Shown here in pieces: positions 11,801 through 64,000 of a stretch of DNA of 64,000 nt; positions within the stretch are counted from its first letter, which is position 1; the number at the start of each line of letters is the position of its first letter. The stretch is from positions 34,177,406 through 34,241,405 of the forward strand of contig CM017561.1 in NCBI GenBank assembly GCA_007844125.1, written 5' to 3'. The DNA is from Sinonovacula constricta (Eukaryota; Mollusca; Bivalvia; Cardiida; Solecurtidae). A program made the translations under genes and the position numbers. A model generated the notes under the pieces. That model saw only the letters and a program-made list of their open reading frames with translations, did no database searches and was not told the DNA's origin.

Positions 11801-12179
11801 CCTTATTTATATTTTATATTACAAAGTTTAAATTCATTAACAATCCCTGGCAGTTGTATCCGCTCTTTCGTGCAACAAAAAGTTAAATTACTTTCATTGC
11901 ATGCTTAGTTTCGCAAGCCTTTTAAATAAATTATTAAAGAAAATGTTTTATGTTTTATGTTAAGAAAGAATTAAATTGCATGAGGTATCGTTTTGTATGC
12001 TTGTTTGATAATCATAAATATATCCTGTTGTGTTTTTGGTAGGTTTTCTTTATGGCATTTTCTTCTTTGTATTTTTTTCTTCTTATTTTTCAGAAAAAAT
12101 ATTTTTAAGGTGTTTTTAATGTTGCTTATTAGGTTTCTCGTTTAATGGCTTAGCAGAAGGTGGCTCCAGCGTAACAGTT

Positions 12180-12370
12180 CGCCCGATATTTTAGCCAATA
12201 ACTCAACGAAAAAAAGCCCCCCCCCCCCCCCCCCCCCCCGAGAATCGGGCCTCCGTGCCAATTCTCCGGATCTTTTTGCCAATAAATCAACGAAAAAAGC
12301 TTCCAAGAGAGCCGGACCAGTATACCAACTTCGTCGGATCTTTTAGCCAATAGATCGAAGAAAAAATGGC
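12180..12370. repeat. three-copy ~70-85 bp repeat with a C23 tract, at the left edge of the viral block
   Basis: The motif GATCTTTTAGCCAATA(G/A)(A/C)TC(A/G)A(C/A)GAAAAAA occurs near 12185, 12269 and 12339. A run of 23 C residues (12217-12239) interrupts the first unit. The repeats lie where the AT-rich host sequence changes to the GC-richer viral block, so they may be remnants of a viral terminal or promoter repeat. Confidence 0.6.
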
Positions 12371-12447
12371 CACAATCCTGACCCTAGGAGACGGCCCACC
12401 ACCCCTGCCGGCCCAGAGTGGCTGTGCTTTCCAAAGCCTCGCGGGAA

Positions 12448-12558
12448 TCAGTCCTCGGCTTTCTCTCGGAGAAAATATCGTTTTGCGGTGTCTTCGTTAG
12501 ACTGTTCAAGCCGATGCGTCATATAGGCCACCAGAATGAGCATGGCGACAGGGGTAAT
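12448..12558 (-). pseudogene. fragment of a small viral membrane protein
   Basis: A minus-strand frame ending at the stop 12448-12450 encodes a hydrophobic segment (MLILVAYM in its core) followed by a charged tail ending REKAED. This looks like a single-pass membrane protein. An in-frame stop lies just upstream (TAA near 12556), so only the C-terminal part is readable. No family can be named; its place beside other viral frames is the main support. Confidence 0.4.
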
Positions 12559-12678
12559 GATCTGGAAAAGATCGATGATTTAATACAACTTTGTTCCTGG
12601 TATGCTGGAGGGTGATCACAGTGTGTAGTACACACGTGGCTCGGAGAGATTGAGTATTCAACTGTTTGGAAAGCTCGG

Positions 12679-13235
12679 CTAGCCTTCTTTGCGACCGTCT
12701 TCTAGGATTTTTTTAAGCTCCTCCATGTTCTCCTGAGGTGCCTTTTCATCACTGACCTTCCGATTCAGGTCGTCGAACTTCTGAAGCTCATCTAGAATAA
12801 GCCTATACTCGACATCGGAACTATTCCCGTCAGCTCACGATGTCGGAGATGGTATTCAGCTTTGCTCGGACTATCGCCTCGATGCACCGATGCTTAACGA
12901 GTTTATGGGTTAGCGCTCCCAGCCATCTTGCCAATAACAGAGAGACCCGCACAACTAAGAGACCCAATCTCAAGCCCTACAGCGATCGGAAGGGCTACAA
13001 CCGTCGATATGAGAAATACACCTCCGATTCTAAGCCCAGCGCCAACGGTCGCCAAAGCAGCGTCGGCGCCATCTACGGAATTCAACGCCCTCGTGTATTT
13101 CTTGCTGAGGCTTGCCATTTTTTCGGCTTCTTGCATTAACTCTGCCTGGATTCGGATTATCTGCTGAAGACGGTAAGCGTGCCCATCACCCTCAGTTGGC
13201 AGGGTGGGATATATTGGAATCACTCCGTCTTTCAT
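12679..13235 (-). pseudogene. small viral protein with a glycine-rich hydrophobic core, frameshifted
   Basis: The start is the ATG at 13233-13235, which overlaps the stop of the upstream frame as ATGA. The N-terminal ~60 residues form an amphipathic helix-rich region (LQQIIRIQAELMQEAEKM), then comes a hydrophobic Gly/Ala/Val segment at about residues 62-100. The frame breaks near 12905, continues in another frame (AIVRAKLNTISDI) and again downstream to a lysine/glutamate-rich end with a stop at 12679-12681. I have seen similar small proteins in invertebrate Polinton-like elements; the function is unknown, possibly membrane-associated. At least two frameshifts make it non-functional. Confidence 0.5.
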
Positions 13236-13239
13236 GTCT

Positions 13240-13824
13240 CGGTTCGATTTTTACCCCAACACATCTCTACTTCAATTAGCAGAGCAACCACTCTCGAAGC
13301 ATTAGTCCGACTCGAGTCCCGCGTCAGAAAGTTGATAATATCACCCTTTTCAACTTCTAGCTGTTGTTGGAAAGTTTTCTCATCGGAAAAATAGCCTGGA
13401 TTCTAAGTTATATCATAACCGTCTTGATACTTGTCACCTACTATAACGCCCCCCCCCCCCCACCCACCCACACACACTCTTCTGAGTTTCCATTACATTG
13501 AGCCGCAGACAAAGACATAGCCAGTATCTTTCCTCTTTTCATAATGACGTAGCCCACTTTACTATGGCTATTACCATCCAAGTTTGAGAATTTGGGAACT
13601 TGCATGTCAACGTAGTGTTTGTTTGCAGCATCGTTCGAATGAAATGGAAGAGACAAATTCACTGTCCGGTGATTGTTAAGATTAATATGACCTTCCATAG
13701 TCGTGTCACCGTTTTTCATGAGGACTTCTCCCTTTAAGAACTTCAAACCTTGCTCGACTATTCTCGCCGAAACCGCATCCTTAGGCAGTTCGATGTCGCC
13801 GAGGTTCATGATCCGACTCCTCAT
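13240..13824 (-). pseudogene. viral fibre-like structural protein, broken at a poly-C tract
   Basis: The frame opens at 13822-13824. Residues ~35-75 carry a tail-fibre/attachment-like pattern: GDTTMEGHINLNNHRTVNL followed by DAANKHYVD, in which a repeated 'change, then keep the element indexed' motif resembles the N-terminal part of phage and virus fibre proteins. The frame runs into a C-run (G on the coding strand) at about 13449-13461 and dissolves into Gly. A second minus-strand frame then runs to 13240 with one internal stop near 13391 and ends overlapping the next gene's ATG. The slip at the homopolymer may be a true mutation or an assembly error. Confidence 0.5.
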
Positions 13825-13847
13825 TAGGTCTACATCACCATCCTGAT

Positions 13848-13853
13848 CCTTTA
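13848..13853 (-). promoter_or_regulatory. possible TATA box of the fibre-like gene
   Basis: On the minus strand TATAAAGG lies about 25 bases upstream of the ATG at 13822-13824, a plausible distance only if the mRNA leader is very short. It is a weak call from motif and position alone. Confidence 0.25.
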
Positions 13854-13904
13854 TATGTAGTGGGTCAGATCAGGCGCACTCTCTATTGAAGCAACTGCAT
13901 CGAC

Positions 13905-14822
13905 GTGAGCCCGAGTAGTGTAGTCTGCATTGGGTTTCCACCCCCACTCCCCACCACTCTTTTCACCTTAAGGACGACAATCACTGGCAAACCGTGGTTA
14001 TCTATTCTGCTACTACGCTCGTCTCTAACAGATATTGTGAGCTCAGAGATAGTTCCCTGTCTCAGAAGCTTGAGCCCGGGATTAGGAAATACGGACGATT
14101 TGATCTCCCCGTACGACCAGCCGCCGACAGCGACAACAGCGATCAGAGTACTGGGGGGCCCCGTTCAAGGCTTTCTCAGCGTTGTTCATCTCTTCTAGGT
14201 GGACAAACAACAACCTGTGCGGGCTGAAATTTACAGGACGGTCACCTAGGTCACCTACACCTGGTTGGAAAGAACGACGGTACTGTTCGAAGCCTAGAAG
14301 CTCCTGCAACCCTTTCGAGATACGAAGGGACCCTGTCGAAAAATGAACATCGGGATTGAGTATTCCGGTAGTTTCATAAAGATTATGGATTAGGCCGCTC
14401 CGCGAGGCTCTGAGATATTCTTGCAACTGCTAAAAGGTCCAAAGGTCCGGGGCACAGAGGTTATCTCATTGGATGAGGTTACATACTCGGCGTTCATAAT
14501 GTTATACCAGCCAACGGTGTACGTGATCGACCTCAGACCGAATTCAAACTTCCATCCCTGTTGTCTATGGGCTGTTGAAGACAGGTTGGGCATGTAGTGA
14601 TATCGGTGATAGTTTGAAACATCTTGCACGATCTGCATCGAGACCTTTACCACCAATAGCGGCGTAAAGTAAAAAGCCGGGGGGGGGGGGGTACCCACGA
14701 CATCTTAACACCGGAACCATGTCCAAGTTAAAGATCACGACAGGCCCAAACCAGTCCTGCTCCGCCAGCCTGCCCGATATCTGGAAACTGTACCGACTGC
14801 CCAAGATCACAATAGAGGCCAC
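13905..14822 (-). pseudogene. degenerate viral structural protein (minor capsid or penton candidate)
   Basis: Several minus-strand frames join end to end across this interval. One at 14390-14698 holds MPNLSSTAHRQQGW and a Tyr/Asn-rich stretch; one at 14082-14426 holds YETTGILNPDVHF and FSPHRLLFVHLEEMN; a third continues into ISELTISVRDE and DNHGLPVIVVLKV near 14000. The alternation of short beta-like hydrophobic strands and polar loops suggests a jelly-roll structural protein, but this is inference. At least two frameshifts and a G-run at 14681-14691 break it. The 5' part near 14720-14822 reads open in three frames, so its coding strand is uncertain. Confidence 0.4.
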
Positions 14823-15015
14823 GGTTCAAGATTGGACCAATAGCCCGATAAATTTCTGGCAGAACCAGAACCGGAACTTCGCGTGTGGTGCGCAACAGCA
14901 GGCTGCGGGTCTCATTCAACGACCACCTGAACGGACCAGGGGCGTGCCGCTTCCCTTTCATTCTGCCTATCTGCCTCTTCCATCTCTACTACACCACCCG
15001 TCGCATTCTAACGGA

Positions 15016-15924
15016 AATGAAATGCGCCCTTTCTCAGGATTCGTCCTGGGATTCCCGTGAACAATACTTACGACTGAAGAGCATATCAACGGCTTTGCCA
15101 GGAATTCGGGGCCGACCCCCAGACAGACTGGCGCCAGAAACAGTACCCCAACAACCGAAGCCTGGAGGACTTCCACACCAGAGGGCACGTTGCGTGGACT
15201 CAGACAGAATTCCGACACGACGGCGAGGAAAAACACGTCGCCAGCCAGAACGCCGGAAGCCTAGATCCCGAGCACATCACGTTCGGGTCGGAGGTCTCTG
15301 GAGGTCGTCATTGCGGGGTTCCGTCTTGCGACTGGCGATCACATAAAAAGGCCCACATTGAGTTCATCGAGCAAGATCCAAGAGTTGATGGCTCTTGGAG
15401 CACGTTCGTGTCTCAAAAGGCTTCACTCAGGCCGGCTTGGAGCGAATCAACGACTCTATCCGGACCTACGTGTGGGCTCTGCTCGGGGCCTAGGCCCAAA
15501 CCAAGTCTCGGATCGCAGTCGGCTTCGAGGCGCAAAAGCAGTTCCTAGCCTTAGTGGCGGATGCGATCAACTTTCTGGTCGACAATCAGGCCGCTATCAC
15601 CCGTTACCAAAGCGTTCTGCAGTACGCCGGGGCGAGCTCAACGTGGTCTTCGGAACAGGAATGTACATGGCTCCGAGTGACATGCTCCTAAACATCAATC
15701 CCGACATTGCGGGCTACAACAACAAAATAATAATAGCTACAGCAGACCTACTAATCGGTGTAGTGGTTGGGGTTAACTTTCTTCCGGTGCAGCCTCTGGT
15801 ATATGGCAGCTTCAATGACGGTAAAATCGCCGGGACGCCGCTGGTGGCCCCGCCGACAGTAAAACCACATGACAGCAGTGAAGCGGTATTTACTGCGCCA
15901 ACGGGCAGCAGCGAAGCTGCGTGA
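15016..15924 (+). pseudogene. viral protein with C-terminal hydrophobic segment, frameshifted
   Basis: A plus-strand frame is readable from about 15016: it includes LCQEFGADP, then a Trp- and His-containing hydrophilic region (WRQKQYPNN, EEKHVASQNAG, CDWRSHKKAH), a one-base slip near 15414, an in-frame TAG near 15490, and a helix-rich stretch (AQKQFLALVADAINFL-like). A second frame change near 15630 leads into an open C-terminal part containing MYMAPSDMLLNINPD, a hydrophobic segment at about 15720-15790 and the stop at 15922-15924. I associate this type of protein with the same class of viral elements, but its role is unknown. It is the only plus-strand gene to the left of the capsid/ATPase pair. 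Confidence 0.5.
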
Positions 15925-15975
15925 GCACAATCCGAGGAAAAGAAGGCTCTGGTTGTGGGTGGGGTTGCAGTAGGG

Positions 15976-16927
15976 CTAAATGCCCTTTGGCTTGTGCTCC
16001 GCTAGCCACTCTTGGGCCCAATTGTGTTTGGCAAGCCATCCGACTGCCTTGCCTGCGGCCGACAACAGCCATGAAACCACGCTGCCAATGATACCAGGAA
16101 TTGCGGCCGCGGCCTTCTCCGCTGGTTTCGCGAGAAGAGCGCAATGGGCTTGCAGCTGTTTTAATCCACTCTTGAATGCTTCCCTTACCTGGTTACCGGG
16201 TGGCTAGGGGAGAGGGGACAGAGCCACTGGTTAGTGCTAGGACGAGCGTGCTGATGGTCATCCCGATTGCGGTGAGGATGAATACGACGGTGATCCCTTG
16301 CTCTCGGAAGAGAGTCTTGATCCGGTCAGCCAGCGTGGTGTCTTCATTTAGGATTCGCCGCAAGGTTTCCCGAACACGACTGATCTACGATCTGAGAGCT
16401 TCTCGGTTGGCTGAAGCCGCCTTTAGCCGTGCGGCCCGTTCTTCCTCGATGTTTCTTATTCTCTCCGTGATACGCCGCTTCATGTCGGGGTCATCCGTCT
16501 CTCTTAGTTTTTCATTCTCTCGATTGTCTGCCGTGGTCGGAGAGACTGGGTTCTCCTCGTTGGGTTTGCATGGCCTTGTCGAGCCCTTTGAGTTCGTGTA
16601 ACCGGATATAGAGCTTGGAATCGTACAATTGTTCCGATTGTTTTCAACGCAGTCTCCTCTATTTCAGACAAGGTCGGAGGCTGTTCTGTTGAAATCTGCT
16701 ACCTCAACGTTTCTGCCAGCACTAGCACTCAGCACTTTATCCAGTTCTCTATCAGTACGCTGTATTTGGGCGACATTTTGGGCGGGTAGCCTATTGCGAA
16801 ACCCCCGGTCCGAGAAACCGAGTTCATCCTGGACAATGGCCCCAATGCCTCCCCTACTTGCTATAGTGGATAACGCTAGGGTTCTTCTAGTATTTCTGCT
16901 GACAAGATCAATATCTGGGAAGGCCTT
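15976..16927 (-). pseudogene. viral coiled-coil and membrane protein, broken
   Basis: The minus-strand frame ends at the stop 15976-15978. Reading back from it are an amphipathic C-terminal region (AVGWLAKHNWAQEWLAEH), a Gly/Ala helix, a clear transmembrane segment (VVFILTAIGMTISTLVLAL) and a charged coiled-coil-like stretch rich in Arg/Glu (ERIRNIEEERAARLK). The upstream part to 16927 is a hydrophilic region containing ASRGGIGAIVQDELGF. Lesions include an in-frame TAG at 16385-16387, a frame change near 16210 and a break near 16680. The layout resembles a virion membrane or minor capsid protein; no family can be named. Confidence 0.45.
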
Positions 16928-17140
16928 CAGGTGGAGCTGACCCTTTCGTCGGTCATAAATGTTTGGTAGTACCGACCCGCAGGAGGCTGACCCTTACCCA
17001 ATCCTTTGTAAAAGCCATCAGCAGTTACCGTAAGTAATTCAGTGGAGAGCGAGGTAGTTGCAATATCGTCCCTGGCCGAATCCAAAAGCGCCAGCCGGTC
17101 ACCGAAGTCTTGCAGCGGGATGCCCTCGTCAGACAATGTA
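16927..17140 (-). pseudogene. minus-strand viral coding fragment
   Basis: A minus-strand open stretch encodes LQDFGDRLALLDSARDD and a following hydrophilic region, apparently in front of the 15976-16927 gene. It may be that gene's N-terminal part or a separate small gene lying divergently from the capsid-like gene that starts at 17173. The plus strand has stops here. Low certainty. Confidence 0.3.
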
Positions 17141-17172
17141 TTGAAGACACGGGTGGATGGGTTCAATACAAG

Positions 17173-18322
17173 ATGTTTCAAAACACTAACGGTCGAAAGC
17201 TCAATCCGCACCAGCGCCTGAGAGAGCCCCTAGGGGCCAAGGGCATCCGCCAGTCAGTCGTGATCACGAACAACCCATCCACGATCGACCAAAACCAGCA
17301 TCTGTTAGTGCGGTTCCCGAATCTCGGCACCAACGATGTCATTGTTCTAGGAACAACCCGATTAGCTTTCTAAATCAAGCTGGTCTCAACCGACGCTAAT
17401 CGCTCAGTGGTCAACAATCTGTGCCGGGCGATCGTTAAGAAAACCACGATCAAGATCTCCGAGAACGAGGTCTCTCCGAGTCTCGACGACAGTGATATGT
17501 TCGGATGTTATATGGACATCTGGAAAACGGAAAACGAGCGGCTAATGCCCAATACCAGGGTATTGACATCACGAATGAAAGAAACGTAACTCGAATAAGA
17601 CTTGATGCCGGAAACAAGACTGCTCAAGCGAAGGATGTTGCTATCGCCAAGGCTTTCGACAACAGTTTCTCAATCCCACTCGATTTCGAACCCTTGAAGA
17701 GTTCTTTCAATCCGCTTTCGGCGATAGACAAGAGTACGAATTTCAATGATTGTGGGCACGTTGTCAGGGCTACCGGCGATGATAATGCTAAATACTCAAT
17801 CAAGGGCATTTCGTTGGATCTCGAGATGGTGACCAATAGGGAGTTGGCCGAAAATATCCGCAACCAGTACGCAGGGATGAATGCGATCCTCTACGACCGG
17901 GTCCTCTTGCACCTCAGGATAGTGACGGATAATTCTGAAACATCACCGCTCGTTCGAGGTCTCTGTTGAGGTCAGTGGAGGTCACTGCCGAGGACAATGG
18001 CGAATGTTCAAGGCATGCGCCCTTACCAGGCATAGGACGGGGTCAGAAAACTGATAAAGTGGCTATGGTGGCCAAGGACCTCGGGCTCCACGCCTGCAAA
18101 CTAGGTTAATACCCCACAGACCAGTTCGCTCTCTGGCTGGACTTAAGGTCCAGCGATGACGACGGCTTGCATGGCAACGACCGCCGGATCGAAAACGCCA
18201 GCGAAGGGATCTCAATTCAGCTCGCCAAGTAAGGGGAAGCTCGGGGAGCATTAAACATATACATCATCGTCCTCATGGACACGCAGCTCAACATCGAGAA
18301 TGGACAATTCGCATCGGCTTTT
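17173..18322 (+). pseudogene. major capsid-like protein of a Polinton/adintovirus-like element
   Basis: From the ATG at 17173 the plus strand encodes a protein whose blocks (NNPSTIDQNQHLLVRFPNLG, AIVKKTTIKISENEV, ENIRNQYAGMNAILYDRVLL) I recognise as those of the abundant capsid-like ORFs in invertebrate Polinton-type elements. By that family's role it would form the capsid shell with a double jelly-roll fold. Lesions: an in-frame TAA at 17371-17373, a frame change near 17535, another near 17945 and further stops in the C-terminal third. The last part overlaps the ATPase frame near 18304-18322, close to where an intact gene should end. The ~380-codon length is near the low end of the class. 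Assignment rests on remembered similarity, not on a search. Confidence 0.6.
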
Positions 18323-18846
18323 TTACTGAAGTGCCTCACTCGGCTATCATTTGCGGCATGACTGGCTGCAGGAAAACGCAATTAGAACTCGACCTCCTCT
18401 AGGGCCCATTTTGCGGCCGTTTCGATCACGTCGTAATCATGAGTCCCACGACCAGGCATAATGGGACCTACCAGGAGCGCCCGTGTGTGTAAACAGACGA
18501 GGAGGTTTGCGTTCTAGATCAAAATGAACGGTTTCAAGACGTGTTGCGAGCTCTCTATCTATTGTTTCAGGGTCAGCCGACGTTGTATGTCATTGACGAC
18601 ATGGCCGCCAGCAAACAGCTCACCAAGAAAAAGTACATGCTCTCCGGGCTTGCAGATAGCGGCCGCCATGACAACCAACCGATCTGGGCCCTGGCTCAGA
18701 GGTACAACGCCGTCCTCAAAGATCTCCGAGAGCAAACGCATTGGGCCGCTCTCTTCCACTGCAAGGATCGGGATAGTCTCGCAAAACATGAAGGAAAACA
18801 GGAGACATGCCCACCCGGAATAATATTTGTAGGCACTTTGCAGTAG
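18304..18846 (+). pseudogene. viral genome-packaging ATPase (A32/FtsK-HerA-like), broken
   Basis: This protein would pump viral DNA into the capsid using ATP. A P-loop is present at about 18340-18366 (ICGMTGCRKTQ), but the glycine before the lysine is replaced by arginine, which should abolish nucleotide binding. Downstream lie HVVIMSPTTRHNGTYQERP and a Walker B strand with paired aspartates (LYVIDDMAASKQ, 18583-18618), then SGLADSGRHDNQPIWALAQR, a sensor-like region. In-frame stops occur at 18400-18402 and 18490-18492; from 18541 to 18780 the frame is open and well preserved, then it degrades. It sits directly after the capsid-like gene on the same strand, the usual pairing in this virus class. 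Confidence 0.75.
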
Positions 18847-18849
18847 GGA

Positions 18850-19415
18850 GGCGCAACAAAAAGAATATACTGTACTGTTGCTTTCCGACGAAGAACACGA
18901 CGACGTCCGTGTATACGGCTACTTCTTGGACCAGGCATACCGCTTGTTAGGCTACCTTGTTGGATGGTAGACACCAAGCAGACATGAATAGGTAGGGACA
19001 CACACGGACAGAGTAGAGACACACATAGACAAACGTAACCCATGGTCAAGACCACCTATACAAACGCAACCACTATAGACACGGACCTTTACATAGACAA
19101 AGTAGCCCAAGAGGTATAGAGCCACCAAGCAAATAGACAACTCAAAGTAGTGCTACCAAGCAAAACTAAGGGGCACACAGATATAGACTCCAAACCCACA
19201 ATGGTTCCTACAAATAGGCTGCGTAGAAGGGGTCCTTCGGTTTCGCGCTTTCTGCCTTTTGCGGTGTAGGCGCGCGCCCCAGTTTCCCATTTTCTACCGT
19301 TGGCGTTGGAGGCGTGCGCCGTTTCCAGGCCCTCGCGACAACTTTCCAGACAAGCACCACAGCTATGGAAATTGCTGTTGAAAGTTGCTTGCATCTGTTT
19401 GGCATGTGTTGTGTA
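18850..19415. other. GC-rich decayed viral or flanking sequence without a supported gene
   Basis: Short open frames occur on both strands, the longest a minus-strand frame at 19208-19459 that is Lys/Arg- and Pro-rich with no domain I know. Its C-terminal part may be the remnant of a small basic protein. Repeated ACACATAGACAAA-like purine-rich patches lie at 19010-19100. Confidence 0.3.
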
Positions 19416-19419
19416 TTTG

Positions 19420-19485
19420 CTTGCGAGCTATAGCCAAAACAGCTGCGAGCTATAGCCAAGATAGCTGCGAGCTATAGCCAAGAGA
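19420..19485. repeat. three tandem copies of a 22-bp unit
   Basis: The unit GCTGCGAGCTATAGCCAAGA recurs three times with one or two substitutions. It contains the near-palindrome GAGCTATAGC. It lies inside the viral block, possibly a regulatory repeat. Confidence 0.85.
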
Positions 19486-19602
19486 GAGTTGGGGAAGTAT
19501 AGGACATAGCCTCTTTGTTGGAAAAATCCTACTCCTGCGGGGTTAGGGATATTAGTAATACACTCGGCACATTTTCCTATATGCCTTGGTTTGGGTTCCG
19601 GC

Positions 19603-19680
19603 GTACAACTATTCGAAGCCGTCCAGAAGACGGCGTATTCTGTACAACTATTCGAAGCCGTCCAGAAGATGGGCGAAAGT
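19603..19680. repeat. two direct copies of a 39-bp unit
   Basis: TACAACTATTCGAAGCCGTC followed by CAGAAGA occurs at 19603 and again at 19642, a 39-bp period. TTCGAA and the surrounding symmetry make each copy partly palindromic. Confidence 0.88.
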
Positions 19681-19856
19681 CGTATGGTTGGTGTTAGTGG
19701 ACAAAGTCCAGTACCCTACCTTTTCGTATTTCTCTAGATAAGACCAGTGTGTATATTTCGATAAACTGTCTAGGGATTTCGTGCCGCTCGTAGAACGTGT
19801 ACCCAGCCTGTTCTAGTATTTGTTTTTCTTCATCGGTGAGGAATATATGCGGAAGT

Positions 19857-20290
19857 CTACAAAGCAGCTCCATTCGGCTTCTCTTTCTTTTTCGGTTTCT
19901 TCTTGGGCACTATGGTCTTCCTCCTTTCTTTCTTTTGTAGTATCTCCTTCTTGGGCACTATGGTCTTCCTCCTTTCTTTCTTTTGCAGTATCTTTTTCGG
20001 CGACATAGCCTTCGTCTGCAGCCTGGCCCTCTGGGGCGCCGCCGGGAATTCGATACTATTTCCTTTAGGCGATGTGGTACTTCTCTTTCGCCTCCCGTAT
20101 AGACAGCTCGCCGGACCGTATTTTGGCGTAGACTTCTCGCGATAGGATTGCACCTGGCATATTTTCTGTATCCACTCCTCGGGCCGCGAGGTATATATTC
20201 TATCTGTATCGATATTTCTCTAAATAGAAGTTCGAAGGGTGCTGCTCCAGGCTGGGAGATACAAATTTGGTAAAAAGGGCGGGTACACAA
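19857..20290 (-). pseudogene. minus-strand viral coding remnant with an acidic 16-residue tandem repeat
   Basis: The minus strand carries an N-terminal segment with a helix-turn-helix flavour (IRSGELSIREAKEKYHIA) followed after two stops by an acidic region in which KERKEEDHSAQE occurs twice; the underlying DNA repeat has a 48-bp period (19903 and 19951), exactly 16 codons. A second frame over the same DNA is Lys/Arg-rich (ILQKKERRKTIVPKK twice), so which frame was coding is a judgement. A nucleic-acid-binding role is possible but unproved. Confidence 0.4.
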
Positions 20291-20319
20291 TATACTTTTT
20301 TACCCCATCATGTATACTA

Positions 20320-20845
20320 GGGGCTTTCTTGGTATCTTTTGGATCTTAAAAAGATGGTTGTACTCGTACCCTGTGTCACGATTTCTTCAGGAAAAAATGT
20401 TGGAAGCTTTCTTTGTGTCTTTTGGATCTTAAAAAGATGGTTGTGCTTGCGCCATGTGCCTGGTGTTCTAGTTGGAAAGGATGCTGGGAGCTTTCTTGGG
20501 TATCTTTTGGACCTTAAATAGATAGTTGTGCGGAAAAGATGCTGGGAGCTTTCTTGGTATTTTTTGGATCCTAAAAAGATGGTTGTTAATAGGTACATAA
20601 TCTACCGTTATGCCAGGTGTTCTAGTAAAGAAAGATGCTGGGAGCTTTCTTGGGTATCTTTTGGATCTTAAAAAGATAATTGTGCAGAAAAAATGCTGGA
20701 AGCTTTCTTGGGTTTCTTTTGGATCTTAAAAGATGGTTGTTAGTGGGTACATAACCTCCGGAAAGGGTGTTGTGGGCTTCCTTGGGATCTTTTGAACCTT
20801 ATGAAAGGGGTGGGTACAAAACCTCTTTTTACCCCATCATGTATT
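20320..20845. repeat. decayed tandem repeat, about seven units
   Basis: Units of the form GAGCTTTCTTGGGTATCTTT followed by TGGATCTTAAAAAGATGGTTGT occur near 20324, 20406, 20490, 20545, 20640, 20699 and 20773. Spacing alternates between about 55 and 95 bp, suggesting two unit lengths. The array separates the viral block from the 190-bp satellite arm. Confidence 0.8.
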
Positions 20846-22738
20846 CTACTAATGCCGACATAGAGAAAAGGTGAAAAAACTTCTTGATATGCATCTGAGA
20901 GAGGATTGAAGCAGCTTTCGAGTCCTGGCGAGCTTTAGACTCTATCTTGGGGCTGACTGCCTGAAAATGTCAAAGTGTTTGGAAGGAAATCCGACAATAG
21001 CGGATTTGTAATCACGGAAAGACCTCTTTTAGACCTCGAAACGGCCGACATGGAGGAAATGTGACACAAATTCTTCATAAGAATCCGAAGGAAGACAAAA
21101 CAAGCTTTGAAGTCCTGACCAGATTTGGGCTCTATCTTGGGACTTACTGCCTGAAAAATGTCTACGTATTTGGAAGAAATCCGACAATAGCAGGTTTTTA
21201 ATCACGAATAGGCCTCTTTCTGACCCCGAAAAAGCCGACATAGAGGAAATGTGATGTGTCATTTAGCAATAAGAGCAAACCCGACAGTTACCGCCTTGGA
21301 ACGGTCAGTCGGCATTATGTACCGACTGAGGTGCTTTAACCGGTTTAACAGAGCTCTAACCTCGCACTTCCTGATGGGTTTCTCAAATGCAAGCAATGAA
21401 TGAAAAGAAAACAGATCCATTTGAATAAATGTCCAAGTGCTGACGTTTTGCTTGACAAGTTTTGACGAAAGTAGTGAAGTCATTGAAAAATAATATCCAC
21501 ATAGTTTTTTAGAAGAGAGATAGGTATTATTTCGATTAGAAGACCTACAAAAACGTTAATAGTAAACGAAATTAACTTTTTTGTAATCAAGAAAAAATGA
21601 CCAGAGAAGAGTAAATGGTTGTAGTATCCTGTTCATGCGGAGATGGAATTGAGGAACGAAAGTCCAATGTCCATCAAAGGAAATACACGTAACAATCCTT
21701 ATAGGATGAATTGAATGACAACATAGATTACATGAACGGGGAGATCTTTTACGACTGCCACACTGCACAAGTAACATTGTTGTGATCATGAATATATGAC
21801 ACCAATTCTTTATATACATCTGCAAGAAGATCGATCCAGCTTTCAAGTCCTGACAAGCTTAGGGCTCTATCTTGGGACTGACTGCCTGAAAAATGTCTCC
21901 ATAATTAGTAAAAAATTCCGACCCCGACAAGGCCGACATAGAGGAAATGTGACACACGTTCTTTATATGCATTTAAAAAGAAGATCGAACAAGCTTTCAC
22001 GTTCTAAGAAGCTTTATGACTCTATTTTGGGTCTCACTGCCTGAATTATCACCGTAATTGGTAAAAATCTGCAAAAGAAAACGATTTTTGGTCGCAGATA
22101 GGTCTCAATGGGACACCGACAAGGCCGAAATAGATGAAATGTAACACCACTTCTTCACGTGCATCTGAAAGAGGATTGAACCATCTTTTGAGTCCTGACA
22201 AGCTTTGTGCTGTATCTTGGGGCTGACATCCTGAAAAATGTCTCCGTAATTGGTAGAAACATCTGCAAACAGGTTAGCGGATTTTTCTTAGCAAATAGGC
22301 CTCTTTTCGACCCCGAAAAGGCCAACATAGAGAAAATGTGACATCACTTCTTCATATGCATCTGAGAGAGAATGGAACCAGCTTTCATGTCCTTTAAAAG
22401 CTTTGGGCTCTATCTTTGGACTGACAGCCTGAAAATGTCTACGTATTTGGTAAAAGAATCTGCAAAGAAAGCGGATGTTTGATCGCGGAAAAGCCTCTCT
22501 TCCACCAAGACAAGGCCGACATAGAGGAAATGTGACATAACTTCTTCATAAGCATTCGAGAGAGGATCAAAGCAGCTTCCGGATCCTGAAAAGCTTTTGA
22601 CTCCTGACTGCCTGAAAAATTTCTACGTATTTGGAAGAAAATCAGTCAAGAGCGGAATTTTGGTCAGGGATATGCCTCTTTCTGACGCCGAAACGGCCGG
22701 CATAGAGAAAATGTGACACCAATTCTTCATATGCATCT
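20845..22738 (+). repeat. left arm: ~190-bp satellite units
   Basis: The landmark GCCGACATAGAGGAAATGTGA recurs near 20852, 21042, 21233, 21929, 22127, 22318, 22512 and 22696, followed each time by a TTCATATGCATCTGA-like block and GGCTCTATCTTGGGACTGAC. The spacing is 182-198 bp except where 21253-21795 is inserted. Confidence 0.9.
21253..21795 (-). mobile_element. insertion in the left satellite arm carrying a long minus-strand frame
   Basis: The satellite is interrupted after GAGGAAATGTGA and resumes with CACCAATTCTTTATAT near 21799; the ~540-bp insert is unrelated to the satellite. On its minus strand a frame stays open for roughly 180 codons with a single TAA near 21556, encoding SRKRSPRSCNLCCHSIHPIR, DGHWTFVPQFHLRMN and, after the stop, MTSLLSSKLVKQNVSTWTF. 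I do not recognise it. TGTGA/TATGA at the junctions could be a decayed target duplication. It may be a fragment of a transposon gene. Confidence 0.45.
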
Positions 22739-24004
22739 TCATCATATGTCTAAAATTAACTCATCTGCCCATAAGTTAAGGATTAAAACGCCTGTAGAAT
22801 TATTATTTTGTCTTATTTTGTTCATTTTCTCAGAATTTATATTTGTTAAATTGGAAAGTTTTATTAGGTTTTATCATTGCACACATTCGTTGTAAAATCG
22901 GAATAACTTAGCAAATAAATAATCCATATTATTTTAACTATTATAATTTATCTTAATTAAATTGTTAAATTCCCATTCCACACACTTGGTATTTTACCTT
23001 AAATTACGTTCAATTACCTTATTATATTTTTTTAAATAATATGAAACTTAATTGTTGTTAATTTGAATGTGAACACATGTATTTAACAACAATTTGTGAC
23101 TATTGGTTGCAGTGTCTATTGTTAGAAAACCCTACAATATTTATTGTACTTTTAAGTCAAACGTTAGCGTCTTATGATATAAAAACAACTAGCAAACAAA
23201 CATAGTTACTTGTTCTAAAAATTATATCATGTAAATTTGTCAATAACAGTTTGCTCTTAACTTTGATGTTTTCCTAAATCGAAGCAAAATAGTTTTCTAT
23301 GCATATCCACTACAAGATATTTGCATGTACAAATTTCTGAGCGGCTTCTTAATTTGATTGTCTTCAAAATGAAATATGGTTTTAGAAATATCGAAAAATA
23401 CCATCTCTGACCTTTACCTTTACTTTTACCATAGACCCATATATCTATGCTTTTAAGAGACTTTTAAAGACAAATCAGATATGCTAGAAATTCAATGTAA
23501 CATCGAAGAAAATGCAAACACGATATTGTTCGCTTGAAAGGTCTTTTAGATTTGTGATGGATTTGTAGTCCTAAGAAATGTGATTTAAATAGAATGAATA
23601 ATATCGCTTCATCTGCAGCATAGTAATCTATTTTTTTTTTTTTTTTGGAAACATACAATCGGAGTTTGCCAAGAAGATAGAGGCTGAACAATCAAAGGAT
23701 TTTATCGGCGACTCTACCACGTGCCCACCGGGGCATCCAAGGCTTGCAGTGATTGTTCAGTGACTTGGACACGTGATACCCGAAATAGGAATGATGTGGT
23801 GAACTTGCAAGGATAATTAGACATATTACAAACGTAAAGTGGGTTAAAGTTTTGAGGCGTTGCCCATCAGAAACAGGCGCAAAACGTCACCTAAACAATT
23901 TGTCTTTAGGGTATATAGTAAGTATTTTTTAATTAAATATTCGGAAAAAATCTGACGAAAACATAAAGAAAACGCACGGATAGAGCTTCGTAAGAGGAGA
24001 CGCC
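22739..24004. other. spacer between the inverted arms
   Basis: AT-rich, no gene recognisable. It holds a T-run at 23631-23646 and short chance frames. Nothing else is identifiable. Confidence 0.5.
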
Positions 24005-25522
24005 TGCTTCAAGCTTCTTTCGAAGGCATTTAGAAAAGGGCTGTCACATTTTCCACATGTCCCCTTTGTGTGGTTGGAAAACACAGGTCTTTGATGGATT
24101 TCTTGATGGATTTTATTTATACCATATACGGAAACATTTTTTTACAGCAGTCAGCCGAAATATAGAGCCCAAGGCTCGTCAGGATTAGAAAGATAATTAG
24201 ATCCTTTTGGAAATGCATATGGAGAAGTGGTGTAACATTTTTTCTATGTCGGCTTTGCCAGGGTCCGGAAGAGGCCGCCCGCTACCGAAACCCCGTTTTG
24301 TACTTAATTCCGACCAATTACGGAGACATTTCTCAGGCAGGCAGTCCCAGGATAGAGCTAAAAACTCTAAGGAATCGAAAGCTGCTTCGTTCCGCTTTCG
24401 GATGCATATGAAGAAGTGGTGTCACATTTCTTTTATGTTGGCCTTAACTTTGTCGGAAAAAAAGATATATCCGCGACAAAAAAGCCGGGGGTTTTCCCTG
24501 ATTTTGGACTAAATACGAAGACATTTTTTCAGAGAGTCAGTCCCCAATATATAGCCAAAAACTTTTCAGGACCCAAAAGCCGGTTCTTTCTTCTTTCAGA
24601 TGCATATGAAGAGGTCGTATCACATTTCTTCTATAACGGCCTTGTCGGGGCTTATCCGCGATCAAAAACCCCTTTTTGCAGATTTTTTGTCAATTACGGA
24701 AACCTTTTACAAGCAGTCAGCCCCAACCTACATCGCAAGACGTTTTAGGAGTTGAAAGCTGGTTCGATCCTCCTCCATATGTATATTGAGAAGTGGTGTC
24801 ATATTTCGTTTATGTCGGCCTTGTTGGGGCTGGAAATAGGCCTATCCGAAACCAAAAATACGTTTAGCAGTTTATTTTTTACCAATTATGGAGACATTTT
24901 TCAGGCTGACCTCGCCAAGAGAATGCCCAAAGCTTTTCAGAAATTGAAGACTTGTTCGATCCTCTTTAAGATGCATATGAAGAAGAGTGTCACATTGTCT
25001 CTATGTTGGCCTTGTCGGGGTCAGAAAAAGGCCTATTCTAGAAGGAAAACAATCCGTGTATTTACTTTGTTTGCCCCAAGGTAGAGCCTGTTGCTTTCCA
25101 TGAGTCGGAAGTTGATTCGATCCTCTTTCGGATGCATATGAAGAAGTGATGTCACATTTCCTCTATGTCAGACTTGTCGGGGTCGGAAAGAGGACTATAC
25201 GCGACGAAACATTCACTTTCTTTGCAGATCTGTTACCAAATACGGAGACATTTTCGAGGCAGTCAGTACCAATATAGATCCAAAAGCTTTTCAGGAGCTG
25301 AAAGTTGGTTCGATCCTGTTTCAGATTAATAGAAAAAGGTGGTGTCACATTTTGTCTAAGATAAACGAGGCTTATCTGCGACCAAAAATCCTCCTTTTTC
25401 AGGTTTTTTTTTACAAATTACGGAGACATTTTTCAGGAAGTCAGCCCAAAAATAGAGCCATGGGCTCTTCATGTTTCGAAAGCTGGTTCAGTCCTCTTTC
25501 GGTACATATGAAGAAGTGGTGA
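24005..25522 (-). repeat. right arm: ~190-bp satellite units in inverse orientation
   Basis: The complement of the left-arm landmark (TTCTATGTCGGCCTTGTCGG and variants) recurs near 24050, 24243, 24435, 24629, 24810, 25000, 25163 and 25350, again with a ~190-bp period and preceded by ATGCATATGAAGAAGTGGTG. About eight units. Confidence 0.9.
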
Positions 25523-33661: not shown

Positions 33662-36600
33662 CTAGCAGAACAATCTCACAGCAGGCTAGCTGGACATGCT
33701 AGCCTCAACCAAAGTCTAGCTGGACACTCTCACAGTAGAGTAGAACAGCAAGCTAATGGACAATATCACAGCAGTCTAACTGTACAATATACCACGATAT
33801 ACCAGCTGGACAATCTCACAGCAGACCAGCTGGACAATCTCACGGTAAACAAGCTTGGCAATTTCACAAAAGACTAGCTGGACAATCTCACATTAGACTA
33901 GCTGGACATTCTCACATTAGAATAGCCGGACAATCGCACTGTAGAATAGCCGGACAATCTCACTGTAGACGAGCTGGACAATCTCACTGTAGACGAGCTG
34001 GACAATCTCACTGTAGACGAGCCGGACAATCTCACTGTAGACGAGCTGGACAATCTCACTGTAGACGAGCCGGACAATCTCACTGTAGACGAGCCGGACA
34101 ATCTCACTGTAGACGAGCCGGACAATCTCACTGTAGACGAGCTGGACAATCTCACTGTAGACGAGCTGGACAATCTCACTGTAGACGAGCCGGACAATCT
34201 CACTGTAGACGAGCTGGACAATCTCACTGTAGACGAGCCGGACAATCTCACTGTAGACGAGCTGGACAATCTCACTGTAGACGAGCCGGACAATCTCACT
34301 GTAGACGAGCTGGACAATCTCACTGTAGACGAGCCGGACAATCTCACTGTAGACGAGCCGGACAATCTCACTGTAGACGAGCCGGACAATCTCACTGTAG
34401 ACGAGCCGGACAATCTCACTGTAGACGAGCTGGACAATCTCACTGTAGACGAGCCGGACAATCTCACTGTAGACGAGCCGGACAATCTCACTGTAGACGA
34501 GCTGGACAATCTCACTGTAGACGAGCCGGACAATCTCACTGTAGACGAGCCGGACAATCTCACTGTAGACGAGCTGGACAATCTCACTGTAGACGAGCTG
34601 GACAATCTCACTGTAGACGAGCCGGACAATCTCACTGTAGACGAGCTGGACAATCTCACTATAGACTAGCTGGACAATCCCACTATAGACGAGCTGGACA
34701 ATCTCACTATAGACTAGCTGGACAATCTCACTATAGACTAGCTGGACAATCGCACTATAGACTAGCTGGACAATCGCACTATAGACGAGCTGGACAATCT
34801 CACTATAGACGAGCTGGACAATCTCACTGTAGACGAGCTGGACAATCTCACTATAGACGAGCTGGACAATCTCACTATAGACTAGCTAGACAATCTCACT
34901 ATAGACTAGCTGGACAATCTCACTGTAGACGAGCTGGACAATCTCACTGTAGACGAGCTGGACAATCTCACTATAGACGAGCTGGACAATCTCACTATAG
35001 ACTAGCTGGACAATCTCACTATAGACTAGCTGGACAATCTCACTAAAGACTAGCTGGACAATCTCACATTAGACTAGCTGGACAATCTCACTATAGACTA
35101 GCTGGACAATCTCACTATAGACTAGCTGGACAATCTCACGATAGACTAGCTGGACAATCTCACCGTAGAGTAGCCGGACAATCGCACTGTAGACTAGCTG
35201 GACAATCTCACTGTAGACGAGCTGGACAATCTCACTATAGACTAGCTGGACAATCTCACGATAGACTAGCTGGACAATCTCACCGTAGAGTAGCCGGACA
35301 ATCGCACTGTAGACTAGCTGGACAAGCTCACTATAGACTAGCTAGACAATCTCACTATAGACTAGCTAGACAATCTCACGGCAGACTAAATGGACAATCT
35401 CACAGCAGCCTAGCTGGACAATCGCAAAGCAGTCTAGCTGGACAATCTCACTATAGACTAGCCGGACAATCGCACATAAGACTAGATGAGCAAACTCACT
35501 GCAGACTAGCTCGATAGTCTCACTGTAAAGTAGCTGAAAAATCTCACTGTAGACTAGCTACACAAACTCACAGCAGACTAGCAGGACAATCTCACAGCAT
35601 ACTAGCTAGACAATCTCACAGCAGGCTAGCTGGACAATCTCACAGCAAACTAGCTGGACAATCTCACAGCAGTCTAGCTGGACAATCGCACATTAGACTA
35701 GCTGGACAATCTCACTATAGACTAGCTGAACAATCTCAGTGTAGACTAGCTGGACAAGCTCACTATAGACTAGCTGGACAATCTCACTATAGACTAGCTG
35801 GAAAATCTCACAGCAGACTAGCTGGACAATCTCACAGCAGACTAGCTGAACAATCGCACTGTAGACTAGCTGGACAAACTCACGGCAGGCTAGCTAGGCA
35901 ACCGCACTGTAGAATAGCCGGATTATCGCTCATTAGACTAGCTGAGCAATCTCACTGAAGACTATCTGGACAATCTCACTTTAGACTAGCCGGATTATTG
36001 CACATAAGACTAGCTGGGCAATCTCACTGTAGAGTAGCTCGATAATCTCACTGTAGAGTAGCTGAACAATCTCACCTTAGACTTGCTTGAAAATCCAACT
36101 TTATACTAGCTATACAATCTCACAGCAGACTAACTGAACAATCTCACCTAAGACTAGCTGGACAATCTCACTGTAGACTAGCTGGACAATCTCACTGTAG
36201 ACTAGCTGGACAATCTCACTGTAGACTAGCTGGACAATCTCACAGCAGACAACCTGGACAATCCCACAGCAGACTACCTGAACAATCTCACTGTAAAGTA
36301 GCTGGACAATCCCACAGCAGACTAGCTGAACAATCTCACTGTAGACGAGCTGGACAATCTCACTGTAGACTAGCTGGACAATCTCACTATAGACTAGATG
36401 GACAATCTCACTGTAGACTAGCTGGACAATCTCACTATAGACTAACTGGACAATCTCCCTATTGACTAACTGGACAATCTCACTATAGACTAGCTGGACA
36501 AGCTCCTTATAGACTAGCTGGACAATCTCACTATAGACTAGCTGGACAATCTCCCAGTAGACTAGCTGGACAATCTCCCTGTAGACTAGCTGGACAATCT

Positions 36601-37139
36601 CACTATAGACCAGCTGGACAATCTCACAGTAGACCAGCTGGACAATCTCACTGTAGACAAGCAGAACAATCTCACTGTAGATTAGCTGGAAAATCTCACT
36701 TTAGAGTAGCTGCACAATCTCAGTGTAGACTAGCTGGACAATCTCACCTTAGAGTAGCTGAAAATCTCACTGTAGACTAGCTGGACAATCTCACAGCAGA
36801 CCAGCTGGACATTCTCACAGCAGACAACCTGGACAATCCCACAGCAGACTAGCTGAACAATCTCACCTTTAGAGTTGCTGGACAATCCCACTGTATATAA
36901 GCTAGACAATCTCACTTAAGAGTAGCTGAGCAATCTTACTATAGACTAGCTGGACAACCTCACAGCAGACTAGCTGGACAATCTCACTGTAGACTAGCCG
37001 GATTATCGCTCATTAGATTAGCTGAGCAATCTCACTGAAGACTATCTGGACATTCTCACTTTAGACCAGCCGGATTATCGCTCATTAGATTAGCTGAGCA
37101 ATCTCACTGTAGAGTAGCTCGATAATCTCACTGTATAGT

Positions 37140-37500
37140 AGCTGGACAATCTCACCTTAGACTAGCCGGATTATCGCTCATTAGATTAGCTGAGCAATCT
37201 CACTGAAGACTATCTGGACAATCTCACTTTAGACTAGCCGGATTATTGCTCATTAGATTAGCTGAGCAATCTCACTGAAGACTATCTGGACAATCTCACT
37301 TTAGACTAGCCGGATTATCGCACATAAGACTAGCTGAGCAATCTCACTGAAGACTATCTGGACAATCTCACTGTAGACTAGCCGGATTATCGCTCATTAG
37401 ATTAGCTGAGCAATCTCACTGAAGACTATCTGGACAATCTCACTTTAGACTAGCCGGATTATCGCACATAAGACTAGCTGAGCAATCTCACTGTAGAGTA
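37140..37500. repeat. 72-bp higher-order repeat within the minisatellite
   Basis: Three distinct 24-mers follow one another in fixed order: GATTAGCTGAGCAATCTCAC.., GACTATCTGGACAATCTCAC.., GACTAGCCGGATTATCGCTC... The triplet repeats with a 72-bp period at about 37164, 37236, 37308 and 37380, with further copies near 35918, 36983 and 37066. Confidence 0.8.
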
Positions 37501-40500
37501 GCTCGATAATCTCACTGTATAGTAGCTGGACAATCTCACCTTAGACTAGCTTGAAAATCCAACCTTATACTAGCTATACAATCTCACAGCAGACTAGCTG
37601 GACAATCTCACCTTAGACTAGCTGGACAATCTCACAGCAGACTAGCTGGACAATCTCACCGTAGACTAACTGGACAATCACACCTTAGACTAGCTTGAAA
37701 ATCCAACCTTATACTAGCTATACAATCTCACAGCTGACTAGCTGGACAATCTCACCTTAGACTAGCTGGACAATCTAACTATAGACTAGCTGGACAATCG
37801 CACTATAGACTAGCTGGACAATCGCACTATAGACTAGCTGGACAATCGCACTCTAGAGTAGCCGGACAATCGCACTGTAGACGAGCTGAACAACCTCACA
37901 GCAGACTAGCTTGACAATCTCACCTTAGACTAGCTGAACAATCTCACTATAAACTAGCTGGACAATCGCACTCTAGAGTAGTTGGACAATCTCACTATGG
38001 ACTAGCTGGACAATCGCACTCTAGAGTAGTTGGACAATCTCACTATGGACTAGCTGGACAACCTCACTGAAGACTATCTGGACAATCTCAATTTAGAATA
38101 GCCGGATTATCGCACATAAGACTAGCTGAGCAATCTCTCTGTAGAGTAGCTCGATAATCTCACTGTAGAGTAGCTGGATAATCTCACCTTAGACTAACTG
38201 GAAAATCACACCTTAGACTAGCTTGAAAATCCAACCTTATACTAGCTATACAATCTCACAGCAGACTAGCTGGAAAATCTCACCTTATACTAGCTGGACA
38301 ATCTCACTATAGACGAGCTGGACAATCGCACTATAGACTAGTGGACAATCTCACTAAAGACAAGGTGGACAATCTCACTATAGACGAGCTGGACAATCGC
38401 ACAATAGACTAGCTTGACAATCTTACTATAGACAAGCTGGACAATCGCACTATATAGTAGCTGGACAATCTCACACAAGACTAGCTTGGCAATTCCACAG
38501 CAGACTAGCTGAACAATCGCACTGTAGACTAGCTGGACAACCTCACAGCAGACTATCTGGACAATCTCACTTAAGACTAGCCGGATTATCGCACATAAGA
38601 CTAGCTAAGCAATCTCTCTGTAGAGTAGCTCGATAATCTCACTGTAGAGTAGCTGGACAATCTCACCTTAGACTAACTGGACAATCACACCTTAGACTAG
38701 CTTGAAAATCCAACCTTATACTAGCCATACAATCGCACAGCCGACTAGCTGGACAGTCTCACCTTAGACTAGCTGGACAATCTCACTATAAACTAGCTGG
38801 ACAATCGCACTATAGACTAGCTGGACAATCGCACTATAGACTAGCTGGACAATCGTACTCTGGAGTTTTTGGACAATCTCACACAAGACTACCTTGACAA
38901 TCCCACAGCAGACTAGCTGAACAATCGCAATGTAGACTAGCTGGACAACCTCACAGCAGACTAGCTGGACAATATCACCTTAGACTAGCTGAACAATCTC
39001 ACTGTAAACTAGCTGGACAATTTACCTTAGACTAGCTGGACAATCGCAATTTAGAGTAGTTGGACAATCCCACTATGGACTAGCTGAACAATCTCACTGT
39101 AAACTAGCTGGCCAATTTACCTTAGACTAGCTGGACAATCGCAATTTAGAGTAGTTGGACAATCTCACTATAGACTAGCTGGACAATCGCACTCTGGAGT
39201 AGCTGGACAATCTCACACAAGACTAACTGGACAATCCACTATAGACAAGCTGGACAATCTCACACAAGACTAGGTAGACAATCTCACTATAGACAAGCTG
39301 GACAATCTCACACAAGACTAGCTGGATAATCGCACTTTAGACAAGCTGGACAATCTCACTATAGACAAGCTGGACAATCTCACACAAGACTAGCAGGACA
39401 ATCTCACTATAGGCTATCTGGACAATCGCAATCTAGAGTAGCTGGACAATCTCACTATAGACTAGCTGGACAATCTCACGATAGACTAGCTGGACAATCT
39501 CACTATAGACTAGCTGGATTATTGCAATCTAGAGTAGCTGGACAATCTCACTATAGACTAGCTGGACAATCGCACTATAGACTAGCTGGACAATCGCACA
39601 TAAGTCTAGCTGGAGAATCTCACTATAGACTAGCTGAACAATCGCACTGTAGAGTAGCTGGCCAATCTCGATGCAGACTAGCTGGAAAATCTCACCTTTG
39701 ACTAGCTGAACAATCTCACGGCAGGCTAGCTAGGCAATCGCACTGTAGACTAGCTGGAAAGTCTTACAGCAGACTAGCTGGACAATCTCACTATAAAATA
39801 GCTGGACAATCTCACTATAGAATAGCTGGACAATCTAACTATCGACAAGCTGGAAAATCTCACTATAGAATAGCTGGACAATCTAACTATCGACTAGCTG
39901 GACAATCTCACTATAGACTAACTGGACAAGCTCACTATAGACTAGCTGGACAAGCTCACTATAGACTAGCTGGACGATCTCACTATAGCCTAACTGGACA
40001 ATCTCACTATTGACTTGCTGGACAATCTTACTACAGACTAGCTGGACAACCTCACTATTGACTAGCTGGACAATCTCACTATTGACTAGCTGGACAATCT
40101 CACTATTGACTAGCTGGACAAGCTCACTATAGACTAACTGGACAATCTCACTATTGACTAGCTGGACAAGCTCACCTTAGACTAGCTGGACAATCTCACT
40201 ATAGACTAGCTGGACAATCTCACTATTGACTAGATGGACAATCTCACTACAGACTAACTGGAGAAGCTCATTATAGACTAGCTGGACAATCTAACTATAG
40301 ACTAGGTGGACAATCTCACTATAGACTAACTGGACAAGCTCACTATAGACTAACTGGACAATCTCACAGCAGACTAACTGGAGAAGCTCACTATAGACTA
40401 GCTGGACAATCTCACTATAGACTAGCTGGACACTCTCACTATGGACTAGCTGGACAATCTCACAATAGACTAGCTGGACAATCTCACAGCAGACAAGCTG

Positions 40501-49865: not shown

Positions 49866-49965
49866 CAATCTCACAGCAGGCTAGCTGGACAATCTCACCG
49901 CAAACGGGCTGGACAATTTCACCGTAGTACAGCTTGGCAATGACACAGCAGACTAACTGGATAAT

Positions 49966-52333: not shown

Positions 52334-52454
52334 TTTTCTTTATTTTCTTCAATAAATTCACATCACATGTACTAAAATGCCGGATATGTAACAATGGGTT
52401 TGCCTTAGCTCTGCTGCAATTCATAAGAATAAAGACATAGGGCTCACACAAAGG

Positions 52455-63786: not shown

Positions 63787-64000
63787 CCTGAAACAAAAGA
63801 AGAAAAACAAAATAAAAATAAGTCGATTCACTTATATATTATTTATCTATTTTAGTTAATCATATCAAAACTTGTTAGCCTCAAAGAATTCATACGATTG
63901 TGTTGATGCTGATTGTATGTAGAAGTTGGAACGACATAAAGCTAAAACAACACACACATGGACACAGCTGCCAGAGAAATACTGAATTTCAATGTTGTGT
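63787..64000 (-). other. APEX2 intron (partial)
   Basis: Sequence to the right of the acceptor is AT-rich and non-coding on the minus strand, consistent with an intron that continues past the window edge. Confidence 0.7.

Follow-up and report, generated by a model that had tools for sequence, protein, structure and literature searches.

A decayed endogenous virus block lies at positions 12,167-18,813 of a 64,000-nucleotide stretch of the Sinonovacula constricta genome (contig CM017561.1, C7:34,177,406-34,241,405; this whole stretch is called the window here). We consider it very probable that the block represents the left part of an endogenous polinton-like virus (PLV), truncated and decayed by mutation; over a hundred relatives of it are found in the same 1.22-Gb genome. 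This reading draws on direct observations of gene content, gene order and copy number, of inverted repeats in two copies, of the decay of the window copy and of the likeness of a derivative form on five chromosomes; the window copy itself is presumably inert. We also propose, with slightly less than even confidence, that a hitherto undescribed branch of the Tlr1-like PLVs, with a giant-virus-like capsid, exists in animals, namely in marine bivalves, present here in more than 100 copies and mobile until very recently, and that a non-autonomous deleted form, found on at least five chromosomes, was presumably moved by the integrase of the fuller copies.

Capsid and packaging ATPase genes

Two genes of the block adjoin each other, the capsid gene lying directly upstream of the ATPase gene:

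17173..18322, plus strand: gene of the major capsid protein (double jelly-roll), interrupted by 3 stops and spread over three frames; tblastn of relative P0153 at 47-70% identity
18319..18813, plus strand: A32-type packaging ATPase gene with 2 stops, C-terminus missing; tblastn of a 204-amino-acid relative at 70% identity, E 3e-73

The ATPase match spans residues 7-171 of the 204 in one frame, and Walker A-like and Walker B stretches are seen in frames 18,160-18,399 and 18,493-18,843. Related proteins numbered 114, and Pox_A32 was matched by all 28 ATPase relatives that were aligned. An alignment scan of IMG/VR gave no confirmed relative of the ATPase, and its pieces and profiles had no relevant match among PDB sequences. 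Judged from sequence, an A32/FtsK-type packaging ATPase stands beside the capsid gene, as in the Polinton-like supergroup (Preplasmiviricota).

In the capsid gene, approximately 80 middle residues are without a match between 17,942 and 18,056 (tblastn, P0153). The double jelly-roll fold was predicted on P0153, an intact relative of the broken window gene, and the top fold matches of this model were the capsids of iridovirus, PBCV-1 and Faustovirus; an Adintovirus sp. protein came sixth in the viral fold library at 12% identity. Moreover, Capsid_N was detected in 30/34 aligned capsid relatives at E<=1. In these comparisons, the capsid resembles those of Nucleocytoviricota most. The window capsid piece retrieved 22 related proteins, and its relative P0116, used as query, 5110. 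The related proteins include ones named as from Candidatus Thiodiazotropha metagenome-assembled genomes; we take these organisms to be symbionts of lucinid clams, so that the bins presumably contain host DNA. No confirmed capsid relative emerged from alignment scans of IMG/VR and GTDB r220 contigs, and comparison of capsid pieces and profiles with PDB sequences gave no relevant match.

Comparison across copies also favours the expected coding strand of both genes. In a six-frame substitution test (180-base steps, each counted by its start inside the gene), the best frame was on the expected strand in 12/13 steps of capsid and ATPase together. An earlier note on this DNA had proposed a packaging ATPase with Walker A-like and Walker B motifs and a capsid-like gene directly upstream of it; both proposals hold, and the profile check that it advised for an A32-like ATPase gave the Pox_A32 result above.

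Fuller copies and the half missing from the window

The assembly searched comprises 1,219,916,990 bases in 177 contigs, about 19 of them large, a number in line with the chromosome counts of bivalves. Genome-wide, the ATPase piece has at least 151 matches, some rows being two pieces of one place. Eight copies, excluding the window, were read as two adjoining ~10-kb stretches each; of 20 loci considered, they are those in which the ATPase match has no internal stop. DNA of window 12,431-18,781 is collinear, wholly or partly, in 7/8 of them at ~69-90% identity. In all eight, the homology to the window stops at 18776-18781, and therefore the window copy was cut there; since it stops inside the ATPase gene, its missing right half is a truncation.

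Beyond the ATPase gene, most copies encode two small proteins as well as an rve integrase on the same strand (Pfam rve, E 1.9e-10). The pieces on their opposite strand show polymerase-like motifs, together with a superfamily 1 helicase (AAA_30, E 7.3e-11, also AAA_19, and a Dda-like helicase PHROG) and an endonuclease VII/HNH tail (L023:5931-6683; PHROG endonuclease VII, E 6.5e-12, together with HNH matches). By tblastn, the integrase was recovered in 7/8 copies and the palm-like piece, the helicase and the nuclease tail in 6/8 each, and none of these pieces had a match in the window. Across the genome, 126 ATPase places among the matches listed were compared with the listed integrase matches (the best 150 of 1069 candidates). 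In 74 of these places an integrase match lies no more than 10 kb away, against ~0.3 places expected by chance; 72 of the 74 have it downstream on the same strand, 51 of these at a distance of 2-3 kb. The earlier note had seen no integrase or polymerase in the window, rightly, and had left the choice between a partial integration and a lineage devoid of these genes; the first proposal stands, while the second does not agree with the contents of the fuller copies.

The palm-like motifs are adjacent to the helicase and on the same strand, frame L023:4929-5927 holding both the second motif and the helicase, and motif C of the palm-like piece is ATDS. A further frame, L023:3099-3845, which we take as the N-terminal piece of the polymerase gene, was matched in 6/8 copies. 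These opposite-strand pieces may form one protein, the fusion being seen solely as adjoining broken frames. The scanned (broken) pieces gave no match to DNA_pol_B_2, the pieces scanned for an Ulp1/adenain protease gave none either, and the helicase piece had no relevant match among PDB sequences.

Inverted repeats delimit two of the copies: copy cp3 has a 121-bp repeat (93%) with a span of 14.7 kb and copy cp14 a 200-bp repeat (92%) with a span of 12.9 kb. Copy cp5 has one weaker inverted match (82 bp, 72%), and whole-arm comparison of the other five found no terminal inverted repeats. The earlier note had recommended a genome-wide search for intact paralogues with such repeats; of the eight copies read, 2/8 have clear ones and 6/8 do not.

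Taken together, the fuller plan would be a linear element of ~13-15 kb with terminal inverted repeats, carrying a virion block (fibre, capsid, packaging ATPase and small membrane proteins), an rve integrase and a large gene on the opposite strand that combines polymerase-like motifs with a superfamily 1 helicase and an endonuclease VII/HNH tail. Most probably, the integrase would put the linear DNA into host chromosomes, the polymerase-helicase would copy it, provided that its palm is active, and the ATPase would pump it into the double jelly-roll capsid if virions are formed. The element could then move either as a transposon or as a virus.

Several points weigh against this reading. The eight copies were chosen by a stop-free match, and hence seven of eight is no genome-wide rate; among the matches listed, 52/126 ATPase places have no integrase match within 10 kb. 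Clear inverted repeats are present in just 2/8 copies, with no target-site duplication candidate beside cp3 or cp14. The palm of the polymerase is recognised by no more than two motifs that the copies share, and the palm-like piece has no relevant Pfam, PHROG or PDB sequence match. The capsid structure model is of moderate confidence, and for the first member Capsid_N scores just 16.4 bits, where the gathering score is 24. Finally, no minor (penton, single jelly-roll) capsid protein was found, genes A, C, D and E of the block (listed below) have no convincing family match, and for gene C the expected strand was best in just 2/6 steps of the substitution test.

Two side observations concern the copies. 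Downstream of cp14, open pieces at L033:3615-5366, which we presume to resemble a classical polinton polymerase (no such Pfam match was found), perhaps belong to a second element nested in or adjacent to cp14; within them, L033:4752-5366 has only a weak endonuclease VII PHROG match (E 0.008). At G000:C7:34250683-34251078 (minus strand), 9.3 kb beyond the window, lies a further integrase match (78% identity), which belongs to the same family and has no listed ATPase match within 10 kb; it could be another copy or a displaced right half.

A probable, recently dispersed derivative

Five ATPase places (L041-L045) share the same truncated match and lie on five chromosomes (C1, C3, C8, C11 and C18). 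None of them matches window 15,699-18,003, nor the integrase, palm or helicase pieces; they retain the ATPase gene and the C-terminal portion of the capsid gene, along with a small protein and the presumed N-terminal piece of the polymerase gene. These copies are mutually ~93-99% identical, three of them at 99.2-99.3%. We read them as a recently dispersed, apparently non-autonomous defective derivative and, since they still match the presumed polymerase N-terminal piece, they look like deletion derivatives. In the three closest copies, the likeness of the flanks breaks off at nearly the same point on the right, and on the left it reaches the limit of the 1.5 kb compared, with a ~760-base interruption in the C3 copy. 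Because the likeness extends to the left limit compared, a larger repeat or a segmental duplication may instead have carried the five near-identical copies.

Fibre-like and small genes of the window copy

Besides the A32-type ATPase and the double jelly-roll capsid, the block holds a fibre-like gene and four further genes (A, C, D and E), distributed over both strands:

12784..13250, minus strand: gene A, a small protein with a hydrophobic stretch, broken; minus-strand frames conserved in 3-6 of 8 copies; no family match below E 0.009
13262..13869, minus strand: fibre-like gene, broken; piece 13,444-13,869 matches a phage tail-fibre PHROG, E 1.1e-6
13961..14704, minus strand: gene C, a virion-block protein (235-amino-acid relative), broken and spread over several frames; matched by L034:2740-3444 and L035:5404-5892 in tblastn; no family match below E 0.02
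15111..16002, plus strand: gene D (247-amino-acid relative), broken and spread over three frames; matched by L024:2752-3492 and L025:4932-5633 in tblastn at 62-90% identity; no family match below E 0.01
15979..17229, minus strand: gene E, a coiled-coil/hydrophobic protein (390-amino-acid relative), broken; tblastn of L021:7389-8558 covers 16232-17226

Like the capsid gene, these genes are split between frames. The fibre-like gene is present in other copies, and its relative L024:4140-4670 also matches tail/fibre PHROGs (best E 2.8e-4); against PDB sequences, the window piece gave a weak match to tail-fibre gp9 alone (E 0.31). Gene A matches a longer open frame, L025:2581-2940, and shows frame preference at 12910-13330. 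Gene E has a weak match to a virion structural protein PHROG (E 0.0016), and piece 15979-16203, conserved in 5/8 copies, probably belongs to it. In the substitution test, the best frame was on the expected strand in 9/10 steps of gene E, 7/7 of gene D, 4/5 of the fibre-like gene and 3/4 of gene A. The small genes of both strands are conserved in other genomic copies, and both the fibre-like gene and the small genes on both strands that had been suspected from the window are thereby confirmed.

Extent and setting of the virus block

The virus DNA is flanked as follows:

12167..12428, no strand: terminal repeat region at the left end of the element; a ~45-nt motif occurs three times as direct repeats at 12170-12366
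18790..20290, no strand: not virus, a mosaic of repeats from elsewhere in the genome; pieces match 38 other rows

On the left, the right end of copy cp16 has inverted matches to window 12247-12367 (73%) and 12382-12428 (87%). On the right, the virus DNA itself ends at ~18,781, inside the ATPase gene; region 18790-20290 has no match in the eight virus copies read, and three loci around other genomic matches to this region (L038-L040) contained no virus piece. Hence, of the block at 12130..20300 delimited earlier, the virus part begins at ~12,167 and the remainder beyond ~18,781 consists of other repeats. No inverted repeats above chance were found between the two ends of the window block. As had been noticed before, the block is richer in G+C, with 46-55% at 12-20 kb; the adjoining 12 kb on the left have 26-42% and the adjoining 4 kb on the right 32-43%, and the step at ~12,140 is sharp.

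Outside the block, the window contains microsatellites, a 16-kb satellite and low G+C, a GRF zinc finger at 62,855-63,838, and remnants of hAT and DDE_Tnp_4 transposases, features from which we infer an animal origin. Neither Rfam and tRNA scans of the window nor phage and plasmid records gave a match. Right of the block, a ~190-197 nt repeat unit recurs in several copies at 20813-22742 and 24200-25520, where open frames (24200-25520) encode similar peptides. A 23-nt direct repeat (96%) at 20297-20319 and 20826-20848 lies on either side of a minisatellite and resembles a satellite insertion with a duplicated target. The 16-kb array (33804-49965) is a 24-nt tandem repeat of ~673 copies at 85% matches, and an open frame of 437 amino acids at 51029-52339 (minus strand) has no Pfam match at E<=0.01.

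Alternative explanations

A bona fide Polinton/Maverick or adintovirus fossil, with an exonuclease-bearing protein-primed DNA polymerase (pPolB), an rve integrase, a protease and an adenovirus-like capsid, is the strongest competitor, yet we regard it as unlikely. The rve integrase, A32 ATPase and double jelly-roll capsid would fit it, as would the sixth rank of the Adintovirus sp. protein and the presumed polinton-polymerase likeness of the cp14 downstream pieces. However, the pieces scanned lack DNA_pol_B_2 and protease matches, the capsid matches Nucleocytoviricota capsids best, and a superfamily 1 helicase with an endonuclease VII/HNH tail on the opposite strand is a feature of Tlr1-like PLVs (PMC11071308). 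Thus, of the earlier label "fossil Polinton/adintovirus-like", a fossil polinton-like DNA virus is retained, and adintovirus-like appears too specific for a Nucleocytoviricota-like capsid and a Tlr1-like replication protein.

We find it very improbable that the family is a lineage truly without polymerase and integrase, e.g., a packaging parasite of other viruses. The window would suit such a lineage, having no replication gene, and so would the five near-identical copies, which lack the integrase and helicase pieces and the beginning of the capsid gene. The family at large contradicts it, with integrase downstream of 72/126 ATPase places among the matches listed, and even the five copies still match the presumed polymerase N-terminal piece. 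As a description of that five-copy group, "without polymerase and integrase" stands.

Nucleocytoviricota have large genomes with other core genes, and a giant-virus fragment carrying a capsid gene and an A32 ATPase gene would explain the Capsid_N matches and the top-ranking folds. It is equally improbable, given that two copies are discrete 12.9- and 14.7-kb units between inverted repeats, that an rve integrase lies beside many copies and that no other giant-virus gene was met in the pieces scanned. Least credible is domestication of the capsid and ATPase genes by the host: many copies exist, some with open frames of 150-250 amino acids around the ATPase match, but the window copy is riddled with stops and shifts of frame, belongs to a large set of copies with ~69-90% DNA identity and keeps the order of the virion block.

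Significance and comparison with known systems

Protists, transpovirons and metagenomes are the main known sources of PLVs with a polymerase-helicase protein. If our proposal is true, a high-copy animal family with an rve integrase, a Tlr1-like replication gene and a giant-virus-like capsid would offer a datable fossil record between PLVs and Nucleocytoviricota, and the 99%-identical derivative would allow a direct test of recent mobility in an animal, by presence or absence between individuals. An element of the Tlr1 plan in a mollusc is new relative to the literature searched, where none was found (including the extracts of PMC5294986, PMC12220804, PMC10294476 and PMC10120064). Mavericks are reported from all mollusc genomes analysed, without detail of this gene plan (PMC10294476), and capsid genes of cnidarians are reported to be the sole metazoan ones that fall outside the main Maverick-Polinton cluster (PMC10120064). 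Endogenous PLVs of stony corals, cited in PMC12220804 (Stephens 2024), are likewise PLV-type elements in an animal genome.

Polintons/Mavericks and adintoviruses share with the family described here the rve integrase, the A32-type ATPase, the double jelly-roll capsid, inverted repeats and an animal host. They differ in having an exonuclease-bearing pPolB, in whose place a helicase-nuclease gene is recognised in the present family; furthermore, no protease was found in the pieces scanned here, and the capsid is nearer to Nucleocytoviricota in fold and Pfam match. Adintoviruses are defined by an OTU-bearing PolB and BLASTp-recognisable hexons (PMC11071296). The Oxyrrhis marina element OmPLV (PMC12721341) is, as we propose for ours, an endogenous PLV with a superfamily 1 helicase and a polymerase in one protein, but has a tyrosine recombinase, no rve integrase and the opposite domain order.

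The closest counterpart is Tlr1 of Tetrahymena, a representative of the pPolB-S1H fusions, which likewise combines an rve integrase (PMC11071308, PMC4642659), an A32 ATPase and a double jelly-roll capsid; PLVs lack rve, with a single exception, according to PMC4642659. Tlr1 differs in being a ciliate element, whereas the present family resides in an animal genome, and in its GIY-YIG nuclease (PMC12721341), in contrast to endonuclease VII/HNH here. Tlr1-like helicases of PLVs are described as having N-terminal domains, vOTU, a protein-primed palm whose motif C lacks the first Asp, a superfamily 1 helicase and a C-terminal HNH or GIY-YIG nuclease (PMC11071308), and in our family, too, the helicase is followed by an HNH-type nuclease and the putative motif C lacks the first Asp. 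Capsids of the Tlr1/OmPLV type fall between PLVs and Nucleocytoviricota (PMC12721341). In capsid type, integrase, helicase, nuclease and the putative motif C (ATDS), the copies agree with the plan of Tlr1-like PLVs, to which the mollusc family, as far as sequence comparison can tell, would belong.

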